A model generated the notes under the pieces. The model was not told where the DNA came from. It was given only the letters and a program-made list of their open reading frames with translations, and did not search any database. From an uncultured Vibrio sp. (GTDB taxonomy: Bacteria > Pseudomonadota > Gammaproteobacteria > Enterobacterales > Vibrionaceae): a stretch of DNA of 64,000 nucleotides. Below, piece by piece: positions 28,338-47,297 of the stretch. Each line of letters opens with the position of its first letter. The first letter of the stretch is position 1. The translations under genes were made by a program, and so were the position numbers. The stretch is taken from contig NZ_OY776222.1 of NCBI RefSeq assembly GCF_963675395.1, positions 1,116,001 through 1,180,000 on the forward strand. Reading direction: 5' to 3'.

Positions 28338-28805
28338 ATGAAAAAACGCATACTTGCTTTAGGCTTAGTTACCTTACTTGCTGGGTGTGGCAGTGATGAA
28401 GTCGGCGATGTGTCGCTAGGCATGTTCACCCTAAAAGACATCAAACTCAATACACTTGTCGATCCCGAGGTGCCAGGTGTCACTTGTCACGTTGCCAGTA
28501 TTGAAGCCGACTTCAGCCTGGCAGACCCAAGTGACAGCTCTATCTCTTGTCGCCAAACGGGTGAAATCACACCGGAAATGCTCGCCAATATTGATATGAG
28601 CAAATCTGGCGAGGTCGTTTTTAAGAAGTCAAAGAGTATCTTCTTTAAATCGATGAAGATTCGCCGTATTTTTGATCCAGAAAATCAAACACTGATGTAC
28701 CTTTCATACTCAACCAAAGAGACATCAGGGAGTTTCAAACACAGTCTATCAACAGTGCCATTGTGGGGTACGAAAGCTTACGTTCAACCAAGTAAAACTA
28801 ATTAA
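28338..28805 (+). CDS. creA: CreA-family protein (lipoprotein form)
   Basis: A 155-residue secreted protein of the CreA family. The start at 28338 has AAGAAGG upstream. The leader ends LLAGC (Cys17), so unlike E. coli CreA this one looks like a lipoprotein. CreA signatures include DPEVPGVTCHVAS, SISCRQTGEI and EVVFKKSKSIFFKSMKIRRIFD, with YLSYSTKETSGSFKHSLSTVP near the end. Function unknown. Its last ~140 bases are repeated at 47101-47240, on the far side of the exopolysaccharide cluster. Confidence 0.88.
   Translation: MKKRILALGLVTLLAGCGSDEVGDVSLGMFTLKDIKLNTLVDPEVPGVTCHVASIEADFSLADPSDSSISCRQTGEITPEMLANIDMSKSGEVVFKKSKSIFFKSMKIRRIFDPENQTLMYLSYSTKETSGSFKHSLSTVPLWGTKAYVQPSKTN
28643..28783 (+). 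repeat. creA 3'-end direct repeat, copy 1
   Basis: A 141-bp segment inside the intact creA. It matches 47101-47240 nearly base for base, apart from a cluster of changes with a 1-base deletion near 28675 and three single substitutions later. Together the two copies bracket the EPS gene block. Confidence 0.9.
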
Positions 28806-28918
28806 CAATAGAGTGCCGCCACCCCATGGCGGCCAACACCCTCTTTCCAGCACTCCAGTAATATCAATGTCCCTTCCGCGTCTATCTTGTAAGTATGGTT
28901 CGACAAGCCGCTCACGGT

Positions 28919-30913
28919 TTAGATTTCGACGTTACGCGTATGCCAGCTAGACTTCAGTAACATTGCTATTCGCTGTACTCGTAACCCGCTCTCCTCTTCA
29001 GATTCTGACATATTGAGATATATGTCTGGCTCAAAGCAGTTCGAAAATGGTTTTTCAGGCTCACGCACTAATAAATGAATACCTCGTTTAAACTGTGCTC
29101 TGGATACAAGCTCCCGATAAGCGATAGATGAGATGAGATTTGTTACTAGATTATGTGGTATGTGCGTTTCGGAGCCAATAATCATCAGCACCTCATAGAG
29201 TGTCGCCCTCGGAGATCGCTTCAATGCGTGGCAAACCAAGTTTAGACAATGTAGGTAATAGACAACCATTGACTTGTACTGTTTTAAAGGCTTTAAAACC
29301 TCTGATGAAGGGATACCTTCATTACTTAATTTGTTGACGATGATATTTGGAATACTTGTTCGCTCACCTTTGGTTAAACCATCAAGTTCTACTACAACGC
29401 CTTCATTCCTTTTGTCTAAAGACGGTTTGCTTTTTCGTTGTGGCTGAACACGCAAAGCAAGAATTCGAAAGAACCAACGCACATCGGAACTAAAAACATG
29501 TGAAGGCCAAATAATCACTTGCAGTAAAACTGAAATAAATAAGATGGTAAGAACGCCAAAGAGAACGCCAAAATAACCAACTTCAAAATAGTGCAATAGT
29601 GAGGAGGTTCCCTGTAATAACGGGAAATAAAACAACACTAACACGCCGGCACGCATATGTTTCAAGGAAAACCAACGCCAAGAAACCTTCAACCAATTCA
29701 GGGTTAACTGAGCCATCAAGAAAAAATTCAACACAATCGCTAATGACACACCCACTGAGACGCCAGGCAAACCCCACCATGAACCCATATAAGCACCTGC
29801 GGCTACAGCACAGGCGTAAATCGCCAGTATAAATGCCCTTTGATACACCAAACCAGTTGCCTTAGTTAAGGGGTCATTCACCTTATAGCCCATACGAAAA
29901 ATAATAGTGCATGACAATATCTGCAATGGGAGCACAGTCTCTGACCAATCAGGTCCTAGAATAAGATGCACAATTTCCGGCCCAAGCACGACGAACAGGA
30001 CCGACATAGGCGCCATTATTGTGGAGCTGAGTGCTACCGCGTTACCATAGTAATCTTTTGCTTTTTGACGATCATTTTGCAGCCGCGAATATATGGGGAA
30101 CATGATACGTTCTAACACCTGTCCAATCAGCATCGATGGCATACCAACTAATTGATAAGCCCTGCCATATATACCGACAGCTGCGGAGTTCATTGTTGCA
30201 GCAACAACCAGATAGTCGATCTGAGTAGCGATGTATCCTAATACTTTAGCGACACTAAATCCGCCAGACATCCATATAATGTGACGAAATGTTCGAAAAT
30301 GAAAAGCGATTATCAGCGTTTTAGGCTTTTGCCAGATCAAGAAAATGCATTTGACTCCTACCTGAGCTAAATAGGCCCAAACCAAAGCCCATACACCAAA
30401 TCCTTCTAGAGCCAGAACTACGCCAACCAGTGTATAGCCGAACAAAAATGACATCATTTCTGCAAAAGCGATTGATGAGTACTTGAGTTCACGGTACAGC
30501 AACCCCTCAGCAACCAGAGACGGTGCCTGAATGACAAAAATAAATGAAAGCGCTTTAATTATGGGGACGATATCCGGTTCAGATAATACGTTCCCTATCT
30601 GGGGTGCAAAGAAAAATAGCAACATAACGGCACAAAATGCAAAACACCATGAAATCAGTGATGCGGTGCCGATATCTTGCACAGACAAATGCTCTCTCTG
30701 GATAATGACGGGTCTTATCAATGCCTCTGTAAACTGACGCCCTAAACCAATAACCACCAATGTTGCCGTGACCAGTCCAAACCCTTCTTGACTGATATGC
30801 CTAGCCAATACTGCAAGCAGTAATATTTGACCTATACCCTGAGTCACCGCTGCAACTGTAGTTATCGCGGCACCATCGAGCACACGAGACGAATGTGATT
30901 TGTCATTTCCCAT
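28919..30913 (-). CDS. Wzx-like oligosaccharide flippase with C-terminal cytosolic domain
   Basis: A 664-residue membrane protein. Residues ~1-485 form a polysaccharide-transporter flippase (MATE/MVF-like fold, 12-14 helices) beginning with GAAITTVAAVTQGIGQILLL. It should flip lipid-linked repeat units to the periplasm. Residues ~490-664 are an extra soluble region that ordinary Wzx proteins lack. It is predicted helical with Arg/Glu-rich stretches (EEESGLRVQRIAMLL), and I cannot assign it. The start overlaps the kinase-like gene upstream by 11 bases. Last gene of the leftward EPS operon. Confidence 0.85.
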   Translation of the reverse strand: MGNDKSHSSRVLDGAAITTVAAVTQGIGQILLLAVLARHISQEGFGLVTATLVVIGLGRQFTEALIRPVIIQREHLSVQDIGTASLISWCFAFCAVMLLFFFAPQIGNVLSEPDIVPIIKALSFIFVIQAPSLVAEGLLYRELKYSSIAFAEMMSFLFGYTLVGVVLALEGFGVWALVWAYLAQVGVKCIFLIWQKPKTLIIAFHFRTFRHIIWMSGGFSVAKVLGYIATQIDYLVVAATMNSAAVGIYGRAYQLVGMPSMLIGQVLERIMFPIYSRLQNDRQKAKDYYGNAVALSSTIMAPMSVLFVVLGPEIVHLILGPDWSETVLPLQILSCTIIFRMGYKVNDPLTKATGLVYQRAFILAIYACAVAAGAYMGSWWGLPGVSVGVSLAIVLNFFLMAQLTLNWLKVSWRWFSLKHMRAGVLVLFYFPLLQGTSSLLHYFEVGYFGVLFGVLTILFISVLLQVIIWPSHVFSSDVRWFFRILALRVQPQRKSKPSLDKRNEGVVVELDGLTKGERTSIPNIIVNKLSNEGIPSSEVLKPLKQYKSMVVYYLHCLNLVCHALKRSPRATLYEVLMIIGSETHIPHNLVTNLISSIAYRELVSRAQFKRGIHLLVREPEKPFSNCFEPDIYLNMSESEEESGLRVQRIAMLLKSSWHTRNVEI

Positions 30914-31685
30914 TTACTGTCTTCTTAATAACATCGATGACCCTGTTAACCGTATCAGCGAAAGGCTGCTCAGTATCAATGTGGTAGATGACTTCATTCC
31001 CCATTCGCTGCCAGCTTTGCGTATGCAGGCGACGAGCTTCTATATATCGATCGCCTTCTTTGTCTTCTTTGACTCTCTCTCTGTTACGCTGTTTTGCTGT
31101 TTCAAGAGAAACACTGAGCTGCAAAACAATATCTGGGGCTGGAATTTGCTGATATATTCGATGTTCTATCAATGCTAATTGATTGTATAAAGACGCCTTA
31201 AGCCCTTTTTGCTCGACATGCAAAGTCAGCCTGGCACTGTCCATCGCTCCGGGCTGATAGGAAGGGTAACGGTCACACACAATAAACGTATGGTTATTAG
31301 CAGCTTTATGGCTGGACACGAGTAGATTACAGCGCTCCCAGGCAATACAAACATTCCAGACAGCATTGACCAATGCTGAAAAGCAAATAGTATTTCGTTG
31401 GGGTTCGTCTACATCGCTGATATCAGAATTTTGCGCCGAGGTAACGTACCCCTTTAACCTAGATGTCCTACTTTTTGGAAAGAGTCTTTTAGCCAAGGGC
31501 AATAATATACGTACAGGAAATGTTAACCAGGTTGCGGGGGGTTTTCCAACATGTATGGAACGAACGTTGTACATGGAGGCTAGCCAACTTTCCAACTCTC
31601 GAGCTATCGTACTCTTACCTGTCGCTTCAGGTCCAACTAATGCTATCACCGCTGCACGACCATTCCCCTGTTCACGCTCTGCCAT
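30903..31685 (-). CDS. P-loop kinase, thymidylate-kinase-like, EPS-associated
   Basis: A 260-residue P-loop protein. Walker A is GPEATGKST near the N-terminus, followed by a TMK-like DRYP motif (FIVCDRYPSYQPG) and an Arg-rich lid (AKQRNRERVKEDKEGDRY). Start at 31685 is preferred for the AGTGG upstream; a start at 31697 is possible. It overlaps both neighbours (14 and 11 bases), so it is tightly coupled within the EPS operon. Dedicated thymidylate kinase is unlikely in this context. A sugar or lipid-linked substrate is possible but unproven. Confidence 0.78.
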   Translation of the reverse strand: MAEREQGNGRAAVIALVGPEATGKSTIARELESWLASMYNVRSIHVGKPPATWLTFPVRILLPLAKRLFPKSRTSRLKGYVTSAQNSDISDVDEPQRNTICFSALVNAVWNVCIAWERCNLLVSSHKAANNHTFIVCDRYPSYQPGAMDSARLTLHVEQKGLKASLYNQLALIEHRIYQQIPAPDIVLQLSVSLETAKQRNRERVKEDKEGDRYIEARRLHTQSWQRMGNEVIYHIDTEQPFADTVNRVIDVIKKTVNGK

Positions 31686-32433
31686 ATATACATCCACTAA
31701 TCAAAATTTCGATGATTCTATTTACATCAGAACTTTGATCCCCGTTAGTGACAAAAGGTTGGACATTGCTACAGGAATTGACGGCGACTAACCTTTGTCT
31801 GATTTCTGGAGATGCTTTAAGGCATTCAAATACTTCTAACGCATGACTGATGAAGGCTTCAACCGCTTCGGAAGAACCAGCTTTGATTCGGTCATGACCG
31901 CGAGCCAGCGTTCGCTCTTTAAGCACCCGTTTAGGTGCAGACAGGAGGATCACAGCGTCTGGAATAGGTATCTGTGATAGAAGTTTATCTACCTGTTTTA
32001 TATCAGGAGCCATCGACTCATAGACAAATAAATAGTGAACAATTTGTAAGAAACCTTCGTCAAGAACGACGATCGTCTCCTTGCTATCATAACGACGAAT
32101 CAACTCATAAATACCGGTATTTCGAAGCACTATCCGGGCTATTTTTATCCGCTCGCGTAAACTGATTGTAGAAGGAAGTCGTTTCAGGTAAGCAAAAGAA
32201 AAATTAAGTATAGGTATGTTTTTATGACAATTAAGTAAACAATAGACTAAGCCGATCAGGTTAGTAGCAATACGCCTGAGCATTGCGTTTTTTAACCAGG
32301 ACAGGTGTATCACTCGAAAAACAAACGTCTGCGCAGCTATCACTTCAGGGCAATCGTCCTGATGCCTGTCCACTATTTTTCTCAGCAACGTCGACTTCCC
32401 GGAGCTGGTACACCCTACTAACTCGACGATCAA
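31672..32433 (-). CDS. P-loop NTPase/kinase-like protein, EPS-associated
   Basis: A 253-residue protein starting directly with a P-loop: MIVELVGCTSSGKSTLLRKI. A Walker-B-like strand ETIVVLDEGFLQIVHYLF and a later PDAVILLSAPKRVLKERTLARGHDR (sensor/lid Arg residues) fit the adenylate-kinase/TMK-like NMP-kinase class. Overlaps the next kinase gene. It lies 33 bp downstream of the Wzc-like gene. Substrate unknown. Confidence 0.72.
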   Translation of the reverse strand: MIVELVGCTSSGKSTLLRKIVDRHQDDCPEVIAAQTFVFRVIHLSWLKNAMLRRIATNLIGLVYCLLNCHKNIPILNFSFAYLKRLPSTISLRERIKIARIVLRNTGIYELIRRYDSKETIVVLDEGFLQIVHYLFVYESMAPDIKQVDKLLSQIPIPDAVILLSAPKRVLKERTLARGHDRIKAGSSEAVEAFISHALEVFECLKASPEIRQRLVAVNSCSNVQPFVTNGDQSSDVNRIIEILISGCIYGRA

Positions 32434-32466
32434 AATAATCTTCTCCCCAAAACCAAAACGTTATCA

Positions 32467-34701
32467 CTACTTCGAGTGACCGTAATAATCACTGTAATAT
32501 TTGTAGTTTGAGGTAAAAGGATCATCAAACCCGTTCGCGACAACTTTGATCGGTTGATCTTTTATCCGCATCAGTTTCTCTATACCGTTTTTAATCTGAG
32601 TTATCTGTGTCGAGCCAGTTCTCACCACATAAACCACCATGTCAGTATAAGTAGAAATAATTTCGGGGTCACTGACTAACAAAACAGGAGGGCAATCAAG
32701 AATAACCCTGTCATATTTTGATGCTAACGATTCCAGCAAATGCTTAAATTCAGAAGAACCAATGACCACCTTAGAATCTTGAGCACGGCTGCTGCCTGCA
32801 TGAATGACATGAAAGTTTTTATGCTCAACCAAACCGTCTTCTAAACAGGCTTTTCCTTCAACTAACTCTACTAATCCCGGAGTTCTAGAATCAATATTGA
32901 GCCCTTTAGCCACGACTGGGCGGCACAAGTCACATTCAACAAGCACAACTCGTTCAAATAAGCTGCAAACATAAGCCAGATTCATCGCAAGATTAGATTT
33001 ACCTTCGCTGCTTAAACTCGATGTGACCATGATCGTTTTACTCGGTTTTTCACTAAGAATTATCCCGGCACGCAAAGAATGCATTGCCTCAATAAAACGT
33101 CTCTCAGGGGCATCATCCTCGCTAAACTTATTGAGTAACAAAGCGGGTTGTTGTTTTGTTTGTTTAGTTTCAAGCATAGGCACAACGCCCAACAACTGAT
33201 ATCCCAGCTTAAGTTCAACGTCCCCGATATTAGTCAGGCGGTTATCCATTGAGTCTCGGACAAATGAGATAAAAACGCCAAAAAATAAACTGACGGCGAA
33301 AGTCATGGAAATGGTTAACGCTTTCTGTGGCTTAAATGGTTCATAAGGTACAATGGCTGGGACGATTACCCTCGCATTCACCGAATCGGCAAAACTCATT
33401 TCCGTCGTTTCTTTTATTCTTTTCAAAAAGAGTGCATAAAGCTCACGATTCGCGTCCACTTCTCGCTTCAAAGCATCCAGTGCAGAGGCTTTTCTACCCA
33501 ATTCATGATAGCGATTTTTTGTTGCTTCAATGGCTTCTTGAATAGACTTCTCATTAGCAGCAGTCGCTTCATATTTTGTCTTGATTCCTTGAATGACGCT
33601 TGTTGCCTGACTAAGTAAAGTATCCTCTATGGTTTTTACATTTTCTCGGGCGGCCACCATCACAGGATGAAGTGACCGATAGCGAACGCTAAGTTCTCTG
33701 ACTTTCTGTTTAGCGATTCCCAGCTGGCTCTTGAGTTGTTGTATCAAAGGATCATTGAGTATTTCTGGTACGGATGGAATGGAGTTAACTGTCTTGGAAG
33801 CGTTCCCCCCCCAACTCGCGACCTGTGAATAAGCATTTTTTGTTAAAGACAGTTGCTGTTGAGTTTCGACCAACTTGGTTGTTAATTCATTCAACGTCAA
33901 CGTAGGTAAATGTTGTAAACCATCTGAATCAACCAGCTTTTCTTTCTCACGAAAAGCTTGCAGCTCCTGCTCAGACTGCTCAAGAGTACCTTTTAAGGTT
34001 GACAGTCTATTCGTCATCCACTGCTCGGTAGACTTAGTCACAGACAATTTTGCGTCCAAAGCACTCTCTAAATACACATCAGCATGAGTGTTGACAACAG
34101 CAGCGGCCAACTTAGGAACTGTAGAACTGAACTTTATTTTTACTAACTGAGTATTGTTTACCGGAGCAATTTCGAGATTTTCAAAATACTTCTCGATCGC
34201 ACGATTCATCGGATCTACGGGCATTTCCACTTCTGCTGTTGATGCAACAACGCCAAAAAACCGCATTACCCATTCCCTAGCATCACTCAGATAACCGGAA
34301 ATACTTTCAACAAGAAAACCCACACTGAATTTGTTACTGTCATTACTACTAAGAACATCAACCAATCCTAATTTATTGATAACTTCTTCTGCTATGGGAC
34401 GAGACTTCAGGATCTCGGTTTGCGTCTTATAAAACTCGTCATTATTTCTGCTATCGGGAATATAGATTTGTTCAATCGAGAGCATTCTTGGCATTTCAGG
34501 TTCGAAAATGAGAGTGGCATTCGCCTTATAGACCGGTGGGATGAGTGAAACTACAAATGCAACCAGCAAGGTTGCAATTACAGATATGAGCAGTATTTTC
34601 CACCAGACTCTCTTGATCACAGCAAAATAATCACGGAGAGAAACTTGATTTTCCTTGCTCCATGGTGTGTCTTGCTCAAATTGTGGTATGTTGTTAAACA
34701 T
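32467..34701 (-). CDS. Wzc-like polysaccharide co-polymerase with BY-kinase domain
   Basis: A 744-residue inner-membrane protein controlling EPS chain length and export. The Wzz-type N-terminal domain has TM1 at ~30-55 (VWWKILLISVIATLLVAFVV), a large periplasmic coiled-coil region, and TM2 near 465-485. The cytosolic bacterial tyrosine kinase follows: Walker A SSEGKSN near 563, Walker A' VVLVECDLCRP, Walker B RVILDCPPV. The C-terminal tyrosine cluster is YKYYSDYYGHSK (Tyr 733, 735, 736, 739, 740). No Wzb-like phosphatase is encoded in this window. Confidence 0.92.
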   Translation of the reverse strand: MFNNIPQFEQDTPWSKENQVSLRDYFAVIKRVWWKILLISVIATLLVAFVVSLIPPVYKANATLIFEPEMPRMLSIEQIYIPDSRNNDEFYKTQTEILKSRPIAEEVINKLGLVDVLSSNDSNKFSVGFLVESISGYLSDAREWVMRFFGVVASTAEVEMPVDPMNRAIEKYFENLEIAPVNNTQLVKIKFSSTVPKLAAAVVNTHADVYLESALDAKLSVTKSTEQWMTNRLSTLKGTLEQSEQELQAFREKEKLVDSDGLQHLPTLTLNELTTKLVETQQQLSLTKNAYSQVASWGGNASKTVNSIPSVPEILNDPLIQQLKSQLGIAKQKVRELSVRYRSLHPVMVAARENVKTIEDTLLSQATSVIQGIKTKYEATAANEKSIQEAIEATKNRYHELGRKASALDALKREVDANRELYALFLKRIKETTEMSFADSVNARVIVPAIVPYEPFKPQKALTISMTFAVSLFFGVFISFVRDSMDNRLTNIGDVELKLGYQLLGVVPMLETKQTKQQPALLLNKFSEDDAPERRFIEAMHSLRAGIILSEKPSKTIMVTSSLSSEGKSNLAMNLAYVCSLFERVVLVECDLCRPVVAKGLNIDSRTPGLVELVEGKACLEDGLVEHKNFHVIHAGSSRAQDSKVVIGSSEFKHLLESLASKYDRVILDCPPVLLVSDPEIISTYTDMVVYVVRTGSTQITQIKNGIEKLMRIKDQPIKVVANGFDDPFTSNYKYYSDYYGHSK

Positions 34702-34728
34702 GATTAAACAAGCTCCTAGCTAACATGA

Positions 34729-34954
34729 TCAGATCGTCTGCTTTTGCAATTTGACCAGCTCTACTGACAGTAACTCCTGATTAATAGTTATCTCTGACAG
34801 AATCGATAACTCTGCCCTTTCACACAAAATCTTGTATAGCTTTTTTAACTCCAGCTCTACTGCTATTGGTTCTACGGAAAACGCCTGAAACTCACCTAAT
34901 AGAAGAGCAGATCTAACCGGAAACGAAAGTAAGTCATCAAAAGTTGTGCTTCAT
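34729..34954 (-). pseudogene. frameshifted small gene between wzy-like and wzc-like genes
   Basis: An ATG at 34954, with AAGG 8 bases upstream and directly after the wzy-like stop, opens a frame that stops after five codons. Removing one base from the T4 run (34939-34942; A4 on +) restores an uninterrupted 74-codon frame to TGA at 34729. The restored product starts MKHNFDDLLSFPVRSALLLG and has a long helical, coiled-coil-like body (VELELKKLYKILCERAELS). This looks like a real operon gene with a one-base insertion, or a sequencing error. No family recognised. Confidence 0.6.
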
Positions 34955-34958
34955 ATGA

Positions 34959-36224
34959 TTACCTTGCCACGAGATCACTATCTAACTTTGCTTTATTAAT
35001 ATTAGTATAGCTAACGGACATAGACGAATGGACAGTAAGATAAGAGGCAAAAAAAGCTAAGAAAAACACAGTCTGAGGTCCCATAGAATCACTCATCATA
35101 TTAGACAGCAGATAAGCAATTATCGAAATCTTGCAGATTTTAGCTCTTTGGTTTCCAGACGAATTATCAGGTATATAGATACGGTATGAAACTATTGCAT
35201 AAATAAAAAATAATATAGCTATCAGACCAGCTGGTCCAAACATCCGCAAATAGTCTATCACTATGTTATGGCTGTGACGTATAGGTTCAGGTAAAGTGCT
35301 GATTAACCCTTCTCCAAGATACGGGTAACTGGTACCTATCTTCCACGAGTATTCCCATAATTCTATTCTCGAGGAAACAGTACGGTATTCGAGCACAGTA
35401 TCTGGAGATAGAGTAGAGAGAACGTCGAAAAGTCGTGGATTAACAGACTGTAAGACCCCACTCTCTTTGATTAAGAATAGCGCTAAAAAAAGAAAAACAA
35501 TCCCAAGTATAAATTTAGTAAGGCTCTTACGGGCAACAAAAAAAGACAATACAATTAGAAACGAAACAATAATTCCAGTTTTAGATCCTGCCAATAGCAA
35601 CAACATGAAACAAACACCTACCATAGCTAAAGCTAAAATCTTGTTTACTCGCCGTTGATACGTTTCAATTTTATCCACGTAAAAGATAAATGTCGTTGTT
35701 ACAACAATGGATAACTGATTTGGATTCGAAAAAAGACCAGTAAAACGATCATGGCCTTCATAGTAAGAAGTTCCAAGGTTAAACCCTGCTTTCTGCATCA
35801 AAGCAGCAATAACATTCAGTATCAATCCCACCGTAATAAAGAAGTAAAACCGTTCAAAAAAAGTACTATCATTATAAAAAATAAATGATAAATAAAGATA
35901 ACAGGTAATAAAAATTATCAGCGAAATTAGTGCCCTGGACACTAATCCGTCATCAGAAAGCACCACACTTACGACATGTAGAAAAAATAGCATCAGTACT
36001 GAAATGAATAACATGCGATTTTTCCGTGCTTCGTAATGGTAGAAAGACAACATGGTCTTGTCTTTCAATATTATGAACAACAACATGACAAAGCATATCA
36101 ACATATATACATAAGTAAGACTCACACTTGAATTACCGATCCTCATCAGACTGGGCATACAAGCTAAAGCTAAGCCAATTGTCATCAATGATGAGAAGGT
36201 GTTGGTTAAGTAATGTCTGCTCAT
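34959..36224 (-). CDS. Wzy-like O-antigen polymerase/ligase family protein
   Basis: A 421-residue membrane protein with 10-12 helices. The Wzy_C/O-antigen ligase signature lies in its large periplasmic loop: GLFSNPNQLSIVV, then LGEGLISTLPEPIRHSHNIVIDYLRMFG, with the characteristic HSHN. It probably polymerises lipid-linked repeat units delivered by the flippase. It is more AT-rich than neighbouring core genes. It follows the glycosyltransferase gene by 44 bp. Confidence 0.83.
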   Translation of the reverse strand: MSRHYLTNTFSSLMTIGLALACMPSLMRIGNSSVSLTYVYMLICFVMLLFIILKDKTMLSFYHYEARKNRMLFISVLMLFFLHVVSVVLSDDGLVSRALISLIIFITCYLYLSFIFYNDSTFFERFYFFITVGLILNVIAALMQKAGFNLGTSYYEGHDRFTGLFSNPNQLSIVVTTTFIFYVDKIETYQRRVNKILALAMVGVCFMLLLLAGSKTGIIVSFLIVLSFFVARKSLTKFILGIVFLFLALFLIKESGVLQSVNPRLFDVLSTLSPDTVLEYRTVSSRIELWEYSWKIGTSYPYLGEGLISTLPEPIRHSHNIVIDYLRMFGPAGLIAILFFIYAIVSYRIYIPDNSSGNQRAKICKISIIAYLLSNMMSDSMGPQTVFFLAFFASYLTVHSSMSVSYTNINKAKLDSDLVAR

Positions 36225-36268
36225 TTTACATCATGTTTCCTTTAAGCTCATGATTCAACAATGCTATC

Positions 36269-37369
36269 CTAGTACTCTCCCTGATATAACTTTAGCCATT
36301 TCATTTTCATATCGCTTGTATTAAAATTATTTTTTGCAAGTTCGAACGAACTCTTTCTCATATTTGAAATGCGTTCAGGGTTATTTTTTAATGTTTGTAT
36401 CGCGTAGATATAATCTTCGACACTCTTACATGCAAATCCATTACTATACTCACCATTGACGACGTCATCACGTCTAGGATATAAGCAATCCAAATTTTGG
36501 TGACAAGTTGAGGTTACTATGGGCATAGCTAAAGACAGTGATTCGATCAAAACTCGTGAAAGCCCTTCCCACCTTGAAGGATGAAACAACAGTGATGATT
36601 GACTTATTTTATTAAATAACTCAGATTGTTCAGTAAAATCTATTATTTTAACGTTATCAGGTAATTCCCCGTATTTTTTGATGATAGAAGTAAGGTATTC
36701 AGGGTCAGATGAACCAACCCAAGTGAATTCACTGTCTTTTAACTCTCTAGCGACTTGTATAAAGATATCAAATCCTTTTTGGTAACAAATACGCCCAACT
36801 GATATTATTTTAAATATATGGTCATCTTGTAATTTTGGGATTTCTTTAACTGTTACTGCATTATTGATATTAGAAATATTCCTAGTGAATTTTTTCCCGA
36901 CTTCATATTCCCCCATACCGCAGGTTACAGTATGTCCAAATAGAGATAAAAACATTTCAACAAGCAAAAATATGAATCTACTGACAACATTCATATCTTG
37001 CCTAAGAAATGCATATCCTCTGGGAGAATAGAAAACAAATGGTATATTCTTTCCTATTGCAGCGAGACGTACGTATAAACCACCAAAACTGCTGTGTCCA
37101 TGAATAGCAAAAGTGTCTTTATTAATAAACTTACGTATCAAAAGTGCATTTTTAAAATGACGTAGTTTCCCTTCGGAAGACATCTCTATCCAAGTGATAT
37201 CACAATCAATATCTTTAATTTCGGCGCGCGTTTCATCACGATGACAGTAAAAAACCGTTATTTCATAATCTTCCTTCAGAAGAGCACATAACTGCTTGAT
37301 CGATTTAGCCGTTCCATAAGCAAAGCTTTCTGTAACTTGAATTATTTTCCTCTTATTATTATTTTCCAT
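36269..37369 (-). CDS. family-4 glycosyltransferase
   Basis: A 366-residue GT-B glycosyltransferase. The C-terminal donor-binding half has ISVGRICYQKGFDIFIQVARE and the E-x7-E motif in HPSRWEGLSRVLIESLSLAMPIV. The N-terminal acceptor half has HGHSSFGGLYVRLAA. It would add one sugar to the undecaprenyl-linked repeat unit on the cytosolic face. It is the only plain glycosyltransferase in the cluster, so the repeat unit is either short or finished by enzymes coded elsewhere. Noticeably AT-rich. Confidence 0.87.
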   Translation of the reverse strand: MENNNKRKIIQVTESFAYGTAKSIKQLCALLKEDYEITVFYCHRDETRAEIKDIDCDITWIEMSSEGKLRHFKNALLIRKFINKDTFAIHGHSSFGGLYVRLAAIGKNIPFVFYSPRGYAFLRQDMNVVSRFIFLLVEMFLSLFGHTVTCGMGEYEVGKKFTRNISNINNAVTVKEIPKLQDDHIFKIISVGRICYQKGFDIFIQVARELKDSEFTWVGSSDPEYLTSIIKKYGELPDNVKIIDFTEQSELFNKISQSSLLFHPSRWEGLSRVLIESLSLAMPIVTSTCHQNLDCLYPRRDDVVNGEYSNGFACKSVEDYIYAIQTLKNNPERISNMRKSSFELAKNNFNTSDMKMKWLKLYQGEY

Positions 37370-37407
37370 GACTAAATCCTTAATGATTAGAATTTCATGA
37401 TGAATAA

Positions 37408-38871: not shown

Positions 38872-39144
38872 TTTAAGTACCACCATTATTATGATTATTA
38901 ATAAGCAAATGTAATTACTAATAAAAAATGCAATTACTAACAAACTTAATTATAGTGAGTTTTTTAATCTATGCATGCAATCGAGACATTCTTTTTCTCG
39001 ATAAAATCATCTTTGTTTTTTCAAAAGAAAAACTAATGAAATTATAAAGACTTCGATACAATGGATGGTATCATTCGGAAACGGTCCATCAACAAATGCG
39101 TGTTCAAGAAATTGCTACTTAGCACCAACACTTTCCTAATGACA

Positions 39145-40275
39145 CTACCAGTTTCGTACTCTAAGTGTACCTTCACTCAATTCATTAAAACCTGTAATCG
39201 TCGGCAACATTAAACTTATCACGCGATTCCAACGCGCGATTGGTGCAGCTGTCACATAGACAACATCATAAGGCTGTAAATCAAATTCAGTACCAATAAC
39301 CAATGCTGACGCGTCTTTTATGTTAAGTTGATAAAGATCTGCCAAACGCTCTTTCTTGTTTTTGGAGATGCGAATCACGAATACCCCTGTTGCGTCGGCC
39401 GACAGTTCATTAATACCACCCACGCTACTTAATGCTTCGGTGAGACTCATTCCAGATCGATCAATCTTCAGTAACTTCGGATCATTCACATCCCCCATAA
39501 CAAATACCTTCTGTGAATCATTACGCGGCACGTGAATAATGTCGCCTGCTTTTAGTAGCCGATTTTGTGTGAGATCACCACGCTGCATTAACGCATATAG
39601 CGAAACTAGTTGCTCCTCTCCATTGCGAGTCAATGTGACGTTACGCCAGTCAGCATCTGGCGCTAACCCTCCCGCATTATTAATCGCATCCAACAGAGTT
39701 AATGGCACATTAGTGATAGGCTGTTGGCCGGGGGAAGACACTTCACCAGTGACATAAGCTTTTTTGGATCGAAATGCCGCAACATTGACATCTACTTGGG
39801 GCCTTTCTATGTATGCATTAAGTTTATGCGCAATTTCCGCCCGGATTTGTGTCACAGTCTTGCCGCTTACCTTTATGGTACCGATGTAGGGATAGAAGAT
39901 AGTACCATCAGCATGAACCCAATTCCCGGCTTCCGAAGCACTACGGTACGAGCCTGCAGGAATGGTCAGTTCCGGGTGATCCCATACCGTTACATTCAAA
40001 ATATCACCAGGACCAATAATGTATTCATAATTTGCAATTTTTTTATCCAACGTGCTGTTTGGCTGCGAACGCGCATTGGTAACCGTTCGAAATCTCGCGA
40101 CAGAATAGGCATCTAACCGATAGATATTGATTTTTTCTGATACTTCACTGTTTGAGCTATCCGACACAATAACGGTCTTGTCACCTAGCGAAATGTCCGA
40201 GCCTGGTACTACGGTGCAACCTGCAAGAAATGTTGGTAACACTATGGCGAGAAGAAGTATTTGCTTTGATTTCAT
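39145..40275 (-). CDS. Wza-like polysaccharide export lipoprotein
   Basis: A 376-residue outer-membrane export channel subunit (Wza is 379 residues). Lipobox FLAGC with Cys20. A polysaccharide export (PES) domain begins [19 protein letters not shown]. Two SLBB-type repeats follow ([17 protein letters not shown] and [16 protein letters not shown]). The C-terminal amphipathic helix ([17 protein letters not shown]) should form the outer-membrane pore. It is the first gene of the leftward EPS operon. Confidence 0.92.
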
Positions 40276-40688
40276 CTATGCTGGCTCCCGGAAAATCACT
40301 CGCTCCCCCATTCGGGAAACTTTGAAGACAAGAGACTGCTATGCCTAGTTTCTATTAATAAAAGTAAACATATGTACTTTAAGCAAGGCTAGGCTATGAT
40401 AAAAATCACATATATTTCTTTGAATGAATATCTTAAACACTCATAACTTATTTAGCATTTTTAAATCCTAAGACTCTGTTGAACTATTTTAGGGAAAATA
40501 ACTAGTTATCATTAAATTCTCGGTCTTAATAGAAAAACTTCCCCTGTTTTCTTAAAAATAAGAACGAGATTCATGACATTAGATTCTCTATGCTTACTAC
40601 TGAATTATAATTGAATAATAGACACTATATAACACTGTTGTATTTTATAGTTTCTACGAAGAATCAATGGCAATAGAGGGTTAATATT
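40276..40688. promoter_or_regulatory. divergent control region of the EPS cluster
   Basis: A 413-bp, very AT-rich gap between wza-like (minus) and the PKD-protein gene (plus). It must carry promoters in both directions. No JUMPstart/ops element is visible, and I could not identify a convincing regulator site. No open frame of note. Confidence 0.55.
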
Positions 40689-43298
40689 ATGTTTATCAGT
40701 AACATAAAAATAAAAAAAACCAGTGTGTATTCAAGTTTCATAAATACGACTATCGCCGCCTACGCATTCACTGTTTTCATTGTGTTTTCAATATTTTCCC
40801 CTTCTTATTCGATGGCAGATGAAGTGCAGGCTAACCTCATTCAAGTCATTGATACTTCAAATTACCCAAGTCCCGATCCAGCAGGTATTGTTTACTTGCC
40901 ATCAGAAAAGAAATTATTGATGACAGATAGTGAAATCAATGAAATGTCCTGGCTTTTCCCTACCGACCAGATAAACGCCTTCAAAATTGACCCAACAACC
41001 GGCGGCGTGGTTGCGAATGGTCGCTATTCGACGATTTCGTTTTCTGATGAGCCAACGGGTATAACAGTCAATCCAAACAACCATCACTGCTTTATCTCTG
41101 ATGATACAGGTAGCAAGTCAATTTATGAAATTGACCCTGGTACCGATGGAGTTTGTATGACACCTGATGATATTGTCACGTCGTTTTCTACTTCAGCGTT
41201 TGGTTCTAACGACCCTGAAGATGTCACATTCGGTCAGGGTTTCTTGTATGTTGTCGACGGAGTATTGGATACTATTTTTCGTGTTGGCCCTGGTACTAAT
41301 GGCCTATTCGACGGTGTTGACGATATAGTCACTAGCGTTAATCTCAGTAGTTTGGGAGTGACTAATCCAGAAAGCATCTACTACGACGCCACTACAGATA
41401 CGCTCTATCTGATTGATGCTAGCGGTCAATTTGTTATTCAGATCACCCCAGACGGGCAACTGGTTCGAACGATAGATATTTCTATTGCTAGTCCCAAAAA
41501 GCCTTCAGGAATAACGATGATACCTCCCAGCAATTTTGGGGATTCCATCATGGTCTACATGACTGCTCGTGGTTGGGATAATGATAGTGATCCGAATGAA
41601 AATGACGGTAAAATATATGTCATGGAGATACCACCTCTTACGCAGGGTAATTCTGCACCCATCGTCTCAGCAGGAGCCGATCAGTCAATCACTTTACCTA
41701 ACCCTACCACCCTTGCGGGTGAGGTTTCTGACGATGGTATTCCTACCAGCACACTGACTAGTTACTGGTCTGTAGTCAGCGGTGAAGGAGAAGTTACCTT
41801 CGAAAACGACAGTGATCCGCAGACGACGGTTTCATTTTCTGTGGCAGGAAATTACGTATTGCGGCTGACTGCCAGTGATGGAGAGCTACAAAGTTACGAT
41901 GAGGTTACTATCAATGTTGCCTTGCAAAATGGTCAATACGTTTTAAGTCGTCGTATTGAGGCCAGTAATGATGACGCTGAAGAAAAAGCAGATGGTCATG
42001 TCTCTATAGCGAGCAGCGATTTAGAGTTGGTTTATGATGGTTCTTATCAAACTGTTGGCATGCGTTTTAATAATATTGAGATTCCGCAAGGTTCTACTAT
42101 CACTGCGGCATACATCCAGTTTCAGGCTGATGAAGTGAAATCAACTGACACGACGCTTACTATTGAAGGCGAACTTTCAGCGAATGCAGCGGGTTTTGTA
42201 AAAGAGAACATGAACATTTCCTCACGCCCTCGTACTAATGCATCCGTCAACAACTGGAGCCCTACTCCTTGGTTATCAGTCGGAGAAGCGGGAACAAATC
42301 AGCGAACTCCTGACATTCAACCCATCATTAGCGAAGTTATCAGCCAAAACGGCTGGGTCAGTGGTAACTCACTTGCCATTATTATTTCAGGAACGGGGGA
42401 ACGTGTCGCGGAAGCATATGATGGCGACCAGAATGGTGCACCTTTGCTTTATGTAGAATACTCCTATATCCCGGGGAACCAACCTCCAGAAGTCTATGCG
42501 GGTGAAGATCAGTCAATCACTTTGTCTGATTCCGCATACCTAGTGGGTGAGGCTTTTGATGATGGCATCCCTGGTAGTACCTTAGCGACAAGCTGGAGTA
42601 AAGTCAGTGGCGAAGGCGATGTGACGTTTTCAAACATTAACGATACACAAACTACAGCATCATTTTCTGACGCTGGTGATTATGTGTTACGTCTGACCGC
42701 CAATGACGGAGAACTCATTGGTTTCGATGATATTTCCATAACCGTTACTCAGGAAGGCGCTCAGACATTAACTCGTCGTGTAGAATCCAGCACTGATGAC
42801 GCCGAAGAAAAAGCGGGAGGCCGCGTAACATTATACAGCAGCGATTTAGAATTGGTTTATGACGGTTCTTATCAAACTGTAGGTATGCGTTTTAATAATA
42901 TTGACATTCCGCAAGGATCAACCATTACAGCGGCATACATCCAGTTCCAGGTTGATGAAGTGAAATCAACGGTCACGGCCCTGACTATTCAGGGAGAAAA
43001 GTCAGCCAACGCAGCGGAGTTTGCAAAAGAAAATTTGAACATCTCATCGCGACCACTTACTGAAGCGCAGGTGAACTGGAACCCTGACTCTTGGTTAGTC
43101 GTTGGAGAAGCCGGCAGTATACAAAAAACACCAGATATCAGTACATTGATTCTCGAAGTTACCTCTCAGGGTGATTGGATAAGTGGTAATTCACTGGCTA
43201 TCATTATAACCGGGACGGGTGAGCGGGTAGCCGAATCATACGATGGTGACTCAGAAGGGGCTCCTTTGCTCTATGTTGAGTATACGCTGAGTAATTGA
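40689..43298 (+). CDS. secreted beta-propeller protein with two PKD + DNRLRE-like repeat units
   Basis: An 869-residue exported protein. A signal peptide ends near SYSMA|DEV. Residues ~45-320 form a beta-propeller with repeating EPTGITVNPNNH, DPEDVTFGQGFLYVVD and NPESIYYDATTDTLYLID blades. Two tandem units of ~270 residues follow. Each has a PKD-like Ig domain (SAGADQSITL... ASDGEL) and a ~150-residue jelly-roll module resembling DNRLRE/CBM domains (VGMRFNNIEIPQGSTITAAY, GERVAEAYDGD). A matrix or polysaccharide-binding role fits the EPS context, by inference. Ribosome site GAGGG. Confidence 0.83.
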   Translation: MFISNIKIKKTSVYSSFINTTIAAYAFTVFIVFSIFSPSYSMADEVQANLIQVIDTSNYPSPDPAGIVYLPSEKKLLMTDSEINEMSWLFPTDQINAFKIDPTTGGVVANGRYSTISFSDEPTGITVNPNNHHCFISDDTGSKSIYEIDPGTDGVCMTPDDIVTSFSTSAFGSNDPEDVTFGQGFLYVVDGVLDTIFRVGPGTNGLFDGVDDIVTSVNLSSLGVTNPESIYYDATTDTLYLIDASGQFVIQITPDGQLVRTIDISIASPKKPSGITMIPPSNFGDSIMVYMTARGWDNDSDPNENDGKIYVMEIPPLTQGNSAPIVSAGADQSITLPNPTTLAGEVSDDGIPTSTLTSYWSVVSGEGEVTFENDSDPQTTVSFSVAGNYVLRLTASDGELQSYDEVTINVALQNGQYVLSRRIEASNDDAEEKADGHVSIASSDLELVYDGSYQTVGMRFNNIEIPQGSTITAAYIQFQADEVKSTDTTLTIEGELSANAAGFVKENMNISSRPRTNASVNNWSPTPWLSVGEAGTNQRTPDIQPIISEVISQNGWVSGNSLAIIISGTGERVAEAYDGDQNGAPLLYVEYSYIPGNQPPEVYAGEDQSITLSDSAYLVGEAFDDGIPGSTLATSWSKVSGEGDVTFSNINDTQTTASFSDAGDYVLRLTANDGELIGFDDISITVTQEGAQTLTRRVESSTDDAEEKAGGRVTLYSSDLELVYDGSYQTVGMRFNNIDIPQGSTITAAYIQFQVDEVKSTVTALTIQGEKSANAAEFAKENLNISSRPLTEAQVNWNPDSWLVVGEAGSIQKTPDISTLILEVTSQGDWISGNSLAIIITGTGERVAESYDGDSEGAPLLYVEYTLSN
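41650..42475 (+). repeat. internal tandem repeat, unit 1
   Basis: First PKD plus jelly-roll unit of the secreted protein. Long stretches are nearly identical at DNA level to unit 2 (for example 42013-42125 versus 42838-42952), implying recent duplication or gene conversion. Confidence 0.82.
42476..43295 (+). repeat. internal tandem repeat, unit 2
   Basis: Second unit, ending the protein. It keeps the same order of motifs as unit 1, with more divergence in the PKD part and near the end of the jelly-roll module. Confidence 0.82.
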
Positions 43299-43380
43299 GT
43301 TGCCTGATATGACGTCAATCGAATGTAAATGAAGATAGGACATCACCCCATTTTCATTGATGTATAAAGGAAGCAAGAGA

Positions 43381-44898
43381 GTGGGTATCGTAAGTCCAGA
43401 ATTGAACTCCGTCGACGGACTGGATGTCGTCATCAATTTTTTCAGTAAAATGGATCGATTGAATGTCTTGTACTGTCACTGGAAAAGTAACGAACATTTG
43501 CGAGAAGGGTTACTGGGTATTACTGACCTCGATGTTTTAGTTGAGAAAGGTAAAACCCGTACCCTTCACAGAGTATTAGCTGACTCTGACTTTAAACTTT
43601 TTAATGCGATGGCAACTCATGGATATCCGGCGGTAGAAGACTACCTCGCTGTTGATGCCTCTACCGGGAGAATGGTTCACTTACATCTTCACTACCAGTT
43701 AATTTGTGGTGAACCACATCTAAAGGGATACCGTTTACCCTGGGAGCATCAAATACTTTTTGGCCGACAGTATGACGAAAAGGAGAAAGTTTATGTAGTA
43801 GAGCCCCATATGGAAATGCTCCTCCTAATTGTCCGATCCATACTAAAATACCGAACCCGAGACTGGGTGCTTGATAAATGCGGTAAATCTTATTTCCGCG
43901 GAGAAAGGCTAAAGGAATTTATATGGTTGAAGGAACGAATATCCTCTTCAGGTATGTTTGAGCTGACTGGAACCCTGTTAGGAAAAGAGGCAGCTACACA
44001 AATTGAAAGTATCATCTCCTCAGACGTCCCATCTCTTAGCCAGATCCTGCGCTTTCGTAAAAGTGCCAAGCAGACTCTTCAACTTTTCAGAACGTACTCT
44101 CCCTTACATGCAAGATGGCGCAGAACCGTACGCGAGCTTTATTGGATATGTGGTGGTATTAACAAGAGGTATATTCATGCCCCTATTCCGCTGCGACGAA
44201 TCAACGCCAGTGGTGGTCTATTAATCGCAATAATGGGGTGTGATGGCTCAGGTAAATCCACACATGTAAAAGCCGTGCAACAATGGTTGTCTTGGAAAAT
44301 GGACGTCATTAGCCTCTATTTTGGCAGCGGGGATGGTCCAAGTTCTTTGATACGTTGGCCGTTAAAATTAATCGTTAACCTGTTACCTAACTCTTCCAAG
44401 AAAGAGACCGAGAGGGAACAAAGCCCCCCCTTAAACCCATCACCATTTAAACAATTAGCCAAAACTATCTGGGCGACAACTCTGAGCCTTGAGAAACATC
44501 ACAAGCTTCGTCAGGCGACGTTGGCTCGTAACCGCGGGATGGTAGTGCTCTGTGACCGTTATCCGCAAAATCAAATTATGGGATTCAACGACGGGCCTCT
44601 GCTCAGCAATTGGTTAAATCATCCGTGGAAGATATTTCGTGCTCTTGCCGAATGGGAGGGCAAGCCTTATCGTGAAGCAGAAACTTATCTCCCTGACGTT
44701 GTAATCAGGCTGAATGTGTCACCGGATGTTGCAGCGCAAAGAAAATCAGACATAAGTTATGAACAGTGTAACAAGCGTATTAACGCGATAAACAGCCTAC
44801 GATACCCAACACCTACACGTGTTGTAGACATTGATGCTAACCAGCCAATCGAACAGGTTTTACTTGAAGTTAAACATGCTATCTGGCGTGCGTTGTGA
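43381..44898 (+). CDS. nucleotidyltransferase-like domain fused to thymidylate-kinase-like P-loop kinase
   Basis: A 505-residue two-domain protein. The first ~200 residues look like an uncharacterised NTase-fold domain (GITDLDVLVEKGKTRTLHRV with a DxD pair, then VHLHLHYQL). The last ~230 residues are a TMK-like kinase: Walker A MGCDGSGKST, then VVLCDRYPQNQIMGFNDGP. This DRYP segment parallels that of the minus-strand kinase at 30903-31685. GTG at 43381 has AAGGA upstream and is my preferred start; ATG at 43360 is possible. Substrate unknown; link to EPS is by position. Confidence 0.78.
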   Translation: MGIVSPELNSVDGLDVVINFFSKMDRLNVLYCHWKSNEHLREGLLGITDLDVLVEKGKTRTLHRVLADSDFKLFNAMATHGYPAVEDYLAVDASTGRMVHLHLHYQLICGEPHLKGYRLPWEHQILFGRQYDEKEKVYVVEPHMEMLLLIVRSILKYRTRDWVLDKCGKSYFRGERLKEFIWLKERISSSGMFELTGTLLGKEAATQIESIISSDVPSLSQILRFRKSAKQTLQLFRTYSPLHARWRRTVRELYWICGGINKRYIHAPIPLRRINASGGLLIAIMGCDGSGKSTHVKAVQQWLSWKMDVISLYFGSGDGPSSLIRWPLKLIVNLLPNSSKKETEREQSPPLNPSPFKQLAKTIWATTLSLEKHHKLRQATLARNRGMVVLCDRYPQNQIMGFNDGPLLSNWLNHPWKIFRALAEWEGKPYREAETYLPDVVIRLNVSPDVAAQRKSDISYEQCNKRINAINSLRYPTPTRVVDIDANQPIEQVLLEVKHAIWRAL

Positions 44899-44904
44899 AT
44901 CATG

Positions 44905-44936
44905 TTGCTTTTCCGGTGTAGGACCCGGAAAAGCAA
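44905..44936. terminator. bidirectional terminator
   Basis: Twelve-bp perfect inverted repeat TTGCTTTTCCGG / CCGGAAAAGCAA, between the convergent kinase fusion and beta-helix genes. Confidence 0.85.
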
Positions 44937-44960
44937 ACATAATTAAAAAAGCAAACGTAG

Positions 44961-46955
44961 TTAAGGCTCAACAGTGGGCAAAATAGGCGTAAACATAAAC
45001 GGGAACACAGCGTAATCGTTCTCGTCGCTAGGCGTAGCTAAAGGGAAAGCCCCCATATTGCCGCCAAGTGAGGAACCAACCAACACACCATTAGGGGAGC
45101 AAAAACCATCGCCTTTTTCATCAGTGCCTGTAACATTACGACAAGTAACGGCTATTGATTTACCCACTCCCGGGCTTTCACTCGTCAGAATAAAATCGGC
45201 AAAACCAAACGTCTCAGAATCCGGCTCTAAGGCCCAATATTTCTGAGTTTTATCCACGATGTTGAGGATAAAATGACTAAATTCGGGATTACTACCTCGC
45301 TTTGGTATATCTCCGATACTGTTCTGCTCAGCACCATATCGAAGCGATAAGTCTCCGACAGTAGATTTACCATCTAGTAACGGCTCATCATCCTGTTCAT
45401 TCACTTTCCAATATAAATTGCCGTCGACTATCTGATCTTTATCTAGATCATAGGACTCTATGATTTCACCATTAATCATCACCACAATGTTATTAGCAAA
45501 CGTACTGCCCTTCGGCTCCTTGGGAATGGGTACAATACCTTTGTGAGAGTTAAGCATAACCAACGTATTCTGATAGTAATGGGCATTTTCTGAGGCATAA
45601 CCACTACCAGCTTGCTTAAACATTTTTCCATACCCAAACTGCCCGCCTCCGTTCCATGAATTTATCCCTTCTTGACGATTTACAGGATGATCGCGTAATA
45701 ACAGTACGACGTTACGATAAAAGAGTAGCGGACCTATCATGTTATCGGTATCCTGCCCTAAAGACACAGCAACCAAACAGTTTAAGATAAAGTTATCGTG
45801 AATGACTATCTGGCCGATGTCACCCGTACCGCCATATTTCTCATCCGCTTCCAACTCGAAGGCATCATCACCACAGTTTTCGATCCGATTGTGGTGCACA
45901 AAGATCCTATCTTCGCCATTAGATGTGGAGATCAAGTCTTGTCCTGACCCTCTAATCAAATTCCAGGAAATAAACCAGTTTTTCGAGCCTCCTTTCAAAT
46001 TAATGGAGGTTCCTCTGGCGCGTGTCGCTGGTTCGGGATCGTCTTTCATATCACTCCAAAAAATCCAATAAGGATCATCACCCAGAATCTGTGAGTGGGT
46101 AATCGTGATATTGTTAACGTCAGTATCCTTTGTTGAAATCGTCGTATTACCCATCCATGCTGTAATACCATCAAAGGTCACATGCTGTGCGCCATCATCA
46201 AGCTCAATGGTATCTTTAGCCTGATTGATAGTTATATCCTTAAAAGTCAGATAACTCCCTTTAACTAACAACGTATTGGATTCTTGAGACAAAATAATTT
46301 GAAAGTTTCTGGGATCACTATTTTCATGTTCAAATACCTGTCCATAGCGAGCCTCTGCATTTCTCATCGCTTCTGTCTTTGAAAGACGAATGTGACATCT
46401 ATCGTCTATTTCCATCGTGCCGGGACCAACGTAAAACTCACTTTTTTTCCCATCGTACTCATCCGTAGTCGCACGAAAATATTTTTCTTTTTCATAAGGA
46501 ATAAGTTTCACTCTTTCATTGACATAACCAGGAATCCCTAAGACATATCCGTATATATCGTCACTATCACATTCTCCAACGGATCGGTATTCACCAAGCT
46601 TTTCATTCACCAACTCCCAATCCTCATTGCCCGGTTGTCGAAACTCTTGAAACCCCGAGTCAATTACAGCCCTCTCACCTTCAACAGACGAAATTAAAAT
46701 TGGCTTCTTTTTTGTACCACTGACTTTAATTTCCACTGACTCATAATATGTACCACCGTATAAATAAAGAGTGTCGCCTGGTTTCAAATTCTTAACAGCA
46801 TGATTAATACTCTGATATGGGCTATCAGCCAAACCAGAGCCTTCATCGTTCCCATATGGAGCGACGAAATACGTGTTTGCCCATGACGCAGGCAGACTTG
46901 TTAGTGCTAACGTAAAAACGCAACACATTAAGCAAATATATTTTTTTACACCCAT
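44961..46955 (-). CDS. secreted right-handed parallel beta-helix protein
   Basis: A 664-residue exported protein with a signal peptide ending near SWA|N. It opens with the DUF1565-like start TYFVAPYGNDEGSGLADSPYQS-type segment and KPGDTLYLYGGTYYESV, typical of pectate-lyase-like beta-helix enzymes and chondroitinase-B relatives. Repeating short strands (ITITHSQILG, IFVHHNRIENC, IVIHDNFILNC) mark the solenoid. The C-terminal part is less regular. It could cleave or epimerise the secreted polymer, but no catalytic residues can be named with confidence. Confidence 0.8.
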   Translation of the reverse strand: MGVKKYICLMCCVFTLALTSLPASWANTYFVAPYGNDEGSGLADSPYQSINHAVKNLKPGDTLYLYGGTYYESVEIKVSGTKKKPILISSVEGERAVIDSGFQEFRQPGNEDWELVNEKLGEYRSVGECDSDDIYGYVLGIPGYVNERVKLIPYEKEKYFRATTDEYDGKKSEFYVGPGTMEIDDRCHIRLSKTEAMRNAEARYGQVFEHENSDPRNFQIILSQESNTLLVKGSYLTFKDITINQAKDTIELDDGAQHVTFDGITAWMGNTTISTKDTDVNNITITHSQILGDDPYWIFWSDMKDDPEPATRARGTSINLKGGSKNWFISWNLIRGSGQDLISTSNGEDRIFVHHNRIENCGDDAFELEADEKYGGTGDIGQIVIHDNFILNCLVAVSLGQDTDNMIGPLLFYRNVVLLLRDHPVNRQEGINSWNGGGQFGYGKMFKQAGSGYASENAHYYQNTLVMLNSHKGIVPIPKEPKGSTFANNIVVMINGEIIESYDLDKDQIVDGNLYWKVNEQDDEPLLDGKSTVGDLSLRYGAEQNSIGDIPKRGSNPEFSHFILNIVDKTQKYWALEPDSETFGFADFILTSESPGVGKSIAVTCRNVTGTDEKGDGFCSPNGVLVGSSLGGNMGAFPLATPSDENDYAVFPFMFTPILPTVEP

Positions 46956-47100
46956 AATTCAATGCCTAAGTACACGAAGAAAACAATATTTCTTCAAAAA
47001 CTTTACCACCACTCATTAATAAAGAGGTGGTTGCGATTTTATTCGAGATATATAAATACATTTATAGAATAGTCAACACTGCATAGAACATCCACACTGG

Positions 47101-47240
47101 CTTTAAATCGATGAAGATTCGCCGTATTTTTGAAGCGAAAATCAAACACTGATGTACCTTTCATACTCAACCAAAGAGACGTCAGGGAGTTTCAAACACA
47201 GTCTATCAACAGTGCCACTGTGGGGAACGAAAGCTTACGT
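47101..47240 (+). pseudogene. orphan creA 3'-end fragment (direct repeat, copy 2)
   Basis: A 140-bp copy of the creA tail, 28643-28783. It lacks the 5' two-thirds of creA. It also has a 1-base deletion (TTTTTGAAGCG versus TTTTTGATCCAG), which breaks the frame, and no in-frame stop at the creA end. It is not expressed as CreA. It marks the right-hand boundary of the EPS block. Confidence 0.88.
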
Positions 47241-47267
47241 CGATCCTACCGAATTTATCGCTCGAAA

Positions 47268-47297
47268 GCCCACCAAACGTGTTGGTGGGCATGTTTT
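47268..47297 (+). terminator. terminator downstream of the creA fragment
   Basis: GCCCACCAA / TTGGTGGGC with a CGTG-type loop followed by T5. It is well formed, yet no intact gene precedes it on the + strand. It may be the original terminator of the creA transcript before the insertion. Confidence 0.85.

Follow-up and report, generated by a model that had tools for sequence, protein, structure and literature searches.

An exopolysaccharide gene island inserted at the 3′ end of creA in a Vibrio genome, with no insertion enzyme found within it

The creA-gsk locus and its exopolysaccharide cassette

In this study, we examined a 64,000-nucleotide stretch of DNA, hereafter the window, corresponding to positions 1,116,001-1,180,000 of the 1.57-Mb contig C1 in a two-contig, 4.77-Mb genome (G000) whose genus mates include named Vibrio contigs. 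On this stretch creA is followed by 11 open reading frames that fill most of 28806-47100, then by a second, orphan piece of creA, and then by gsk. The features are listed below with coordinates, strand and basis of assignment.

28338-28805, +, intact creA, by alignment a hybrid of native head, duplicated tail region and island-borne last codons (CreA PF05981, E 9.4e-43)
28643-28783, +, direct repeat copy 1, within intact creA (alignment)
28784-28805, +, island-borne creA 3′ end, ..QPSKTN and stop (alignment)
28815-28833, no strand assigned, new terminator-like hairpin, lying between creA and the flippase gene that converges on it (minus-strand score; T tail weak)
28919-30913, -, Wzx-type flippase with a long C-terminal extension (PF13440; NF007773 below cut-off)
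30903-31697, -, P-loop kinase-like protein (weak matches)
31672-32433, -, P-loop kinase-like protein, AAA_33 (Pfam)
32467-34701, -, Wzc-like chain-length/tyrosine autokinase protein (PF02706, PF13807, PF13614)
34959-36224, -, Wzy-like polymerase/ligase (PF04932)
36269-37369, -, GT4 glycosyltransferase (PF00534)
37408-38943, -, WcaJ-type undecaprenyl-phosphate glucose phosphotransferase (TIGR03023 above cut-off)
39145-40275, -, Wza outer-membrane export protein (NF011658 above cut-off)
40689-43298, +, PKD-domain protein with internal duplication (PF22352; internal repeat)
43357-44898, +, P-loop kinase-like protein (below-cut-off matches)
44961-46955, -, beta-helix, lyase-like protein (below-cut-off matches to Beta_helix and Chondroitinas_B)
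47101-47240, +, direct repeat copy 2, by alignment a stranded native creA tail
47241-47262, +, remnant of the apparent native creA end (begins like the native end of G223 and G157)
47268-47290, +, apparent original creA terminator (hairpin; a closely similar one follows intact creA in G223 and G157)
47374-48678, +, gsk, inosine/guanosine kinase, chromosome-2 paralogue (PF00294; 94% identical to the gsk annotated in L053)

The initial annotation had reported that some 140 bp of the creA tail are present twice, and both copies are indeed found, in direct orientation, with 135 of 140 aligned bases identical and 5 substitutions between them. Also in line with it, the orphan carries a 1-base deletion relative to intact creA and lacks a start; its reading frame is broken as well. 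The match scores 224 bits, compared with a best off-diagonal score of 31.9 bits in five mononucleotide shuffles of the window, and is therefore not a chance match. Four other direct-repeat matches of at least 80 nt were found in 224 kb of the same chromosome, at 71-77% identity as against 95.7% for the creA-tail repeat. Searched against the whole genome, creA DNA matches at two places only, the intact gene and the orphan (E 0.001 or better). The insertion junction lies near codon 102 of creA, and both edges of the island consist of the direct repeat built from the 3′ end of the target gene.

Judged by family content, the cargo is a Wzx/Wzy-type exopolysaccharide (EPS) or capsule cluster. The Wzx/Wzy-dependent EPS set is present, comprising the flippase, the polymerase, Wza, the Wzc-like protein and the initiating phosphotransferase, and together with the glycosyltransferase these resemble known clusters, matched by family and not gene by gene with known Vibrio capsule loci. 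Unlike such clusters, the island also holds the PKD-domain gene, three kinase-like genes and one lyase-like gene, and its flippase occurs at high identity in only 2 of 227 genus genomes (G000 and G040; three further matches are 26-30% identical). The internal duplication of the PKD-domain gene spans 41679-43282, with about 71% identity over 788 nt. A genome of the same order (G273) carries a collinear block of 10 of the 11 island genes, and no match to wza, creA or gsk was found in the 55 kb around that block, from which we conclude by gene content that the cassette exists apart from creA. A strong flippase match was obtained in two of 394 genomes drawn from the order, namely G273 and G000 itself. 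Among the 7,995 candidates sharing most words that were scored in a protein database, the nearest flippase outside the window's own cluster is that of Vibrio sp. YIC-376 (85% identical).

Consistent with the earlier statement that integrases and transposases are lacking, no recombinase family was found among the 11 island ORFs by Pfam, nor among 10 of the 11 by NCBIfam. The window contains no tRNA. Searches of the literature on creA, genomic islands, Vibrio and integration sites turned up no publication that describes this island or names creA as an insertion site.

Empty sites and the native end of creA

To place the locus among its relatives, we compared the creA-gsk junction in genomes of the same genus. 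In 37 of 48 such genomes besides G000, creA shares a contig with the chromosome-2 gsk paralogue; of the rest, one lacks creA, seven lack this gsk, and three have the genes on different contigs. Measured between their matched parts, the two genes lie 117-290 bp apart in 33 of the 37, about 1.2 kb in three, and 18.6 kb in the last, G040; in G223, G157 and Vibrio sp. J1-1, all close relatives, the distance is 145-146 bp. That creA and gsk were once adjacent, as had been proposed, is thus borne out by the empty junction, and an empty strain with creA directly before gsk, the comparison that the initial annotation had called for, is available many times over. Its further proposal, that the creA tail was duplicated as the EPS block went in, agrees with empty single-copy sites in the relatives and the duplicated tail here. 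In G040 the insertion site and both junctions are the same as in the window, and the island is collinear with that of G000. By match counts, which a badly decayed tail could escape, no third genome with this arrangement was found among the 227 genus genomes (223 with creA), nor was one found that has this duplicated tail but no EPS block.

The two copies of the tail can be told apart by what follows them. In G223 the creA end reads ..ACGTCGAGCC.., followed by a GCCCACC..GGTGGGC-type hairpin and the gsk promoter region, and G157 is much alike. The orphan of the window continues ACGTCGATCC, then into the hairpin at 47268-47290 and the gsk promoter region, as in these two relatives. Intact creA, on the other hand, continues TTCAACCAAGT.., reads QPSKTN, and runs into the new hairpin at 28815-28833; the sequence after 28783 is unlike all eight empty junctions compared, and this end is common to G000 and G040 only among the loci aligned. 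Beyond the 3′ end of the repeat, the creA copies and the orphans differ fully. The head of creA is 268/305 identical to that of the empty-site genome G223, and the target gene has been regenerated as an intact frame with an imported end.

Since the orphan continues like the native end of G223 and G157 and intact creA does not, alignment assigns the orphan, the terminator at 47268-47290 and the gsk promoter to creA's original end and shows the intact gene to be a hybrid. This reverses part of the earlier account. The duplication of the tail stands, yet of its two copies the orphan is the native end rather than a stray, and it is the intact gene that closes in island-borne sequence; and the terminator that was thought to follow the orphan with no gene of its own is creA's original one, matching those of G223 and G157.

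Mode and age of the insertion

What lies here is a real and cleanly readable island insertion of a fairly classical kind, in which the unusual point is the missing insertion enzyme. As an example of an EPS cassette that entered a housekeeping gene's end and has no integrase of its own, it is well resolved: both of its edges can be read, and empty as well as filled sites are available. From the structure, the polarity and the empty sites, all of which are directly observed, we consider it probable that the cassette was inserted by one crossover with an imported creA tail. The incoming DNA would have comprised about 18.3 kb of EPS cassette, most simply as a circle, and would have carried a creA tail of its own with different last few codons and a different terminator. 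A single crossover between circle and chromosome inside the last third of creA would then have left, on one side, a complete creA with native head and imported end and, on the other, the stranded native tail with the native terminator and the gsk promoter. The circular intermediate is the presumptive part of this scheme; a single circle-chromosome crossover does give this structure, whatever makes the crossover.

A close parallel is the e14 element in icd of Escherichia coli, which supplies its target gene with a new end and leaves 163 bp of gene end in duplicate (PMC6379469). As described there, the two cases share the 3′ part of a housekeeping gene as target, an end supplied by the element, and about 160 bp duplicated on the far side (PMC6379469). 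They differ in that e14 is a prophage integrated site-specifically, whereas the creA island, in which no recombination gene was found, carries an EPS cassette and gives creA an end unlike the old one in its last codons and terminator. The mechanism had been called unusual at the outset; this is true of the missing enzyme, but in the light of e14 (PMC6379469) the outcome is not unprecedented.

As to what made the crossover, homologous and site-specific recombination are inseparable from the structure alone because no integrase is left. We put ordinary homologous recombination at about an even chance. Site-specific integration into the creA 3′ end with later loss of the integrase gene, which is a sub-case of the insertion proposed here, is a tentative but serious alternative. 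Its anatomy would be the same as that of e14 in icd (PMC6379469), the first 33 nt at the gene-interior end of the repeat are identical in both G000 copies, and a broken creA tail in another genome, G197, starts, as judged by eye, no more than about 5 nt away from where the repeat does. Against it, no integrase was found in the island of the window, with which the G040 island is collinear, and by match counts no third genome with the arrangement was found.

Possible vehicles weigh in the same direction. The creA tail has no match in 50,697 phage records and creA no relative in viral contigs, and we reject a phage carrying the tail; one exact 30-nt pattern from the left junction is likewise absent from viral contigs, although a single pattern carries little weight. 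A plasmid vehicle is also rejected, on two examined records out of the 13 plasmid records that the tail matched, neither of which is a creA-tail element. One, from V. alginolyticus Isc25B, is linear and 47.8 kb long; its genes are ordinary metabolic ones and recombinases, next to a creA that is cut near codon 33. The other holds an ordinary creA. When the island was compared with the plasmid collection by megablast, two records matched, at creA and/or gsk only, and the best plasmid matches to Wzx were below 60% identity.

The age of the insertion can be approached through G040. Fourfold sites at which G000 and G040 differ number 475/1630 (0.291) across 11 genes of the flanks, creA among them, and 297/2314 (0.128) across the island's 11 genes, where single genes range from 0.018 to 0.246. 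Between the two genomes, identity at the island's non-coding edges is 81-84%; five intergenic stretches of the flanks give 85-94%, and four inside the island vary widely (82-96%). Divergence at these edges equals or exceeds that of the flanks, and the insertion was therefore probably in place before G000 and G040 split and would have occurred in their common ancestor; the lower fourfold divergence of the island (0.128 versus 0.291) in turn indicates that part of it was shared between the two lineages more recently than the flanks were. We read this as one old insertion, the middle of which was later exchanged between the lineages. Positions 30000-33999 of the window, with kinase-like and Wzc-like genes, are 97-99% identical between the two genomes where the flanks reach about 86-93%, which speaks for recent exchange.

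Two independent insertions, one in each lineage, would likewise account for island genes less diverged than their flanks, but we hold this to be unlikely. In the tree of the creA region G000 groups with G040 (support 1.0), which argues for one event, as do the diverged non-coding edges; the tree of gyrB and flanks groups G000 with G223 (1.0) and G040 with G157 (0.89), and gyrB thus does not pair the two carriers. The repeat has 130 gap-free columns, of which three group the copies crosswise, two group them by genome and not one sets the creA copies against the orphans, a pattern that two insertions would fit; the crosswise sites are, however, only three and all synonymous. With the gyrB and creA-region trees in disagreement, any placing of the insertion on one branch is tentative. 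Over some 190 kb of chromosome 2 the identity profile is a mosaic with no sharp edges around the island, and transfer of the island together with a sharply bounded flanking stretch is rejected. Very unlikely, finally, is an initial tandem duplication of the creA end and its surroundings with later arrival of the EPS genes between the copies, or a rearrangement, for although broken creA pieces without such an island in G208 and G197 indicate that creA tails are duplicated in other ways too, in no searched genome was the duplicated tail found without the EPS block, and the ends after the repeat differ fully, unlike the product of tandem duplication alone.

Under a single old crossover insertion, the two repeat copies in G000 are more alike than their age would predict. 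About 26 neutral changes are expected for a copy of that age, compared with 5 substitutions and 1 indel observed (P 3e-6, from a Poisson count at a Jukes-Cantor rate; this presumes one old insertion, and a younger one lowers the figure of about 26). In G040 the copies agree at only 101/131 positions. From this shortfall of changes, the copies in G000 have probably exchanged sequence, either by gene conversion or by a crossover that would also be able to remove the island. Given such exchange, the block could in principle leave cleanly with a whole creA remaining, and the arrangement predicts loss of the surface coat by recombination between the two 140-bp repeats.

creA and the creA-gsk junction in other vibrios

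Six of the 223 creA-bearing genus genomes have a second creA piece (G000, G040, G122, G130, G197 and G208), a count that leaves out G083 and G249, each with one frame-broken copy, and a weak second match in G080. In G122 and G130 creA is cut near codon 33, its 3′ piece lies beyond an insert, and a whole second creA stands at the insert's other end. Beside the cut in G122 are two large serine recombinase genes. V. alginolyticus Isc25B (L053, NZ_CP099953), whose record ends inside the insert, has several annotated recombinase genes at the cut, some apparently broken, and the one scanned gave Recombinase-domain matches; none was found among the three ORFs scanned in the G130 insert. The inserts span 749-19184 of L068 (G122), 1-3775 of L053 (Isc25B) and 3413-14321 of L067 (G130), and by eye they have an AAAGAY-like cut point in common. 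That of G130 holds AAA ATPase and PLD-nuclease genes, phage-defence-like in look.

These serine-recombinase inserts (G122 and Isc25B, with G130 similar) have the target gene and the tail stranded beyond the insert in common with the EPS island; the stranded tail adjoins gsk in G130 and Isc25B, and an intact creA is kept in G122 and G130. They cut near codon 33, however, and in G122 and G130 come with a whole spare creA, whereas the island cuts near codon 102 and brings only an end. A common origin is rejected on the different codon cut, the whole creA brought by two of them, and the lack of an extra 5′ creA fragment here.

The creA-gsk junction is altered in 8 of 33 Vibrio loci, a small count made by eye in which one locus is a Vibrionaceae MAG. 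Altered junctions hold 1.2-1.6 kb in L102, L104, L109 and L112, are rearranged in L089 and have no gsk in L132; L107 and L119 have no gsk within the 10-kb flank, and the same contigs, of G209 and G139, have inserts of more than 10 kb. On creA's other side the junction is altered in at least one of these loci (L108), and the gsk-fhs junction is unusable as a control since fhs was not found after gsk in many loci. This junction count is too small to carry much weight for a hotspot. The island itself directs attention to creA as a recurrent insertion target in Vibrio. We regard as distinctly unlikely the wider idea that creA is a shared docking gene of vibrios for unrelated elements that keep creA working, with the EPS block lost and regained through its 140-bp repeats; if true, the coat would be reversible, the serine-recombinase kind bringing a whole creA and the EPS kind only a spare end.

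Other observations at this locus are varied. In G197 (L070, 14195-14347) a creA tail from about codon 100 lies beside transposase-like ORFs, on another contig than intact creA, and in G208 (L069, 2062-2235) a decayed tail lies about 1.1 kb past intact creA, with a 328-aa ORF of no Pfam family between. In G019 (L035, L036) creA and gsk are on different contigs, each with other neighbours, as after a rearrangement breaking between them, and the gsk match is split into two pieces. Elsewhere the cargo between creA and gsk comprises a nitrate-reductase cluster in G158 (L055-L056), type I restriction-modification genes in G139 (L057), an AMP-binding enzyme and other, metabolic genes in G209 (L072), and a PAS-GGDEF gene in G102 (L073); each of these four genomes has one creA copy by tblastn.
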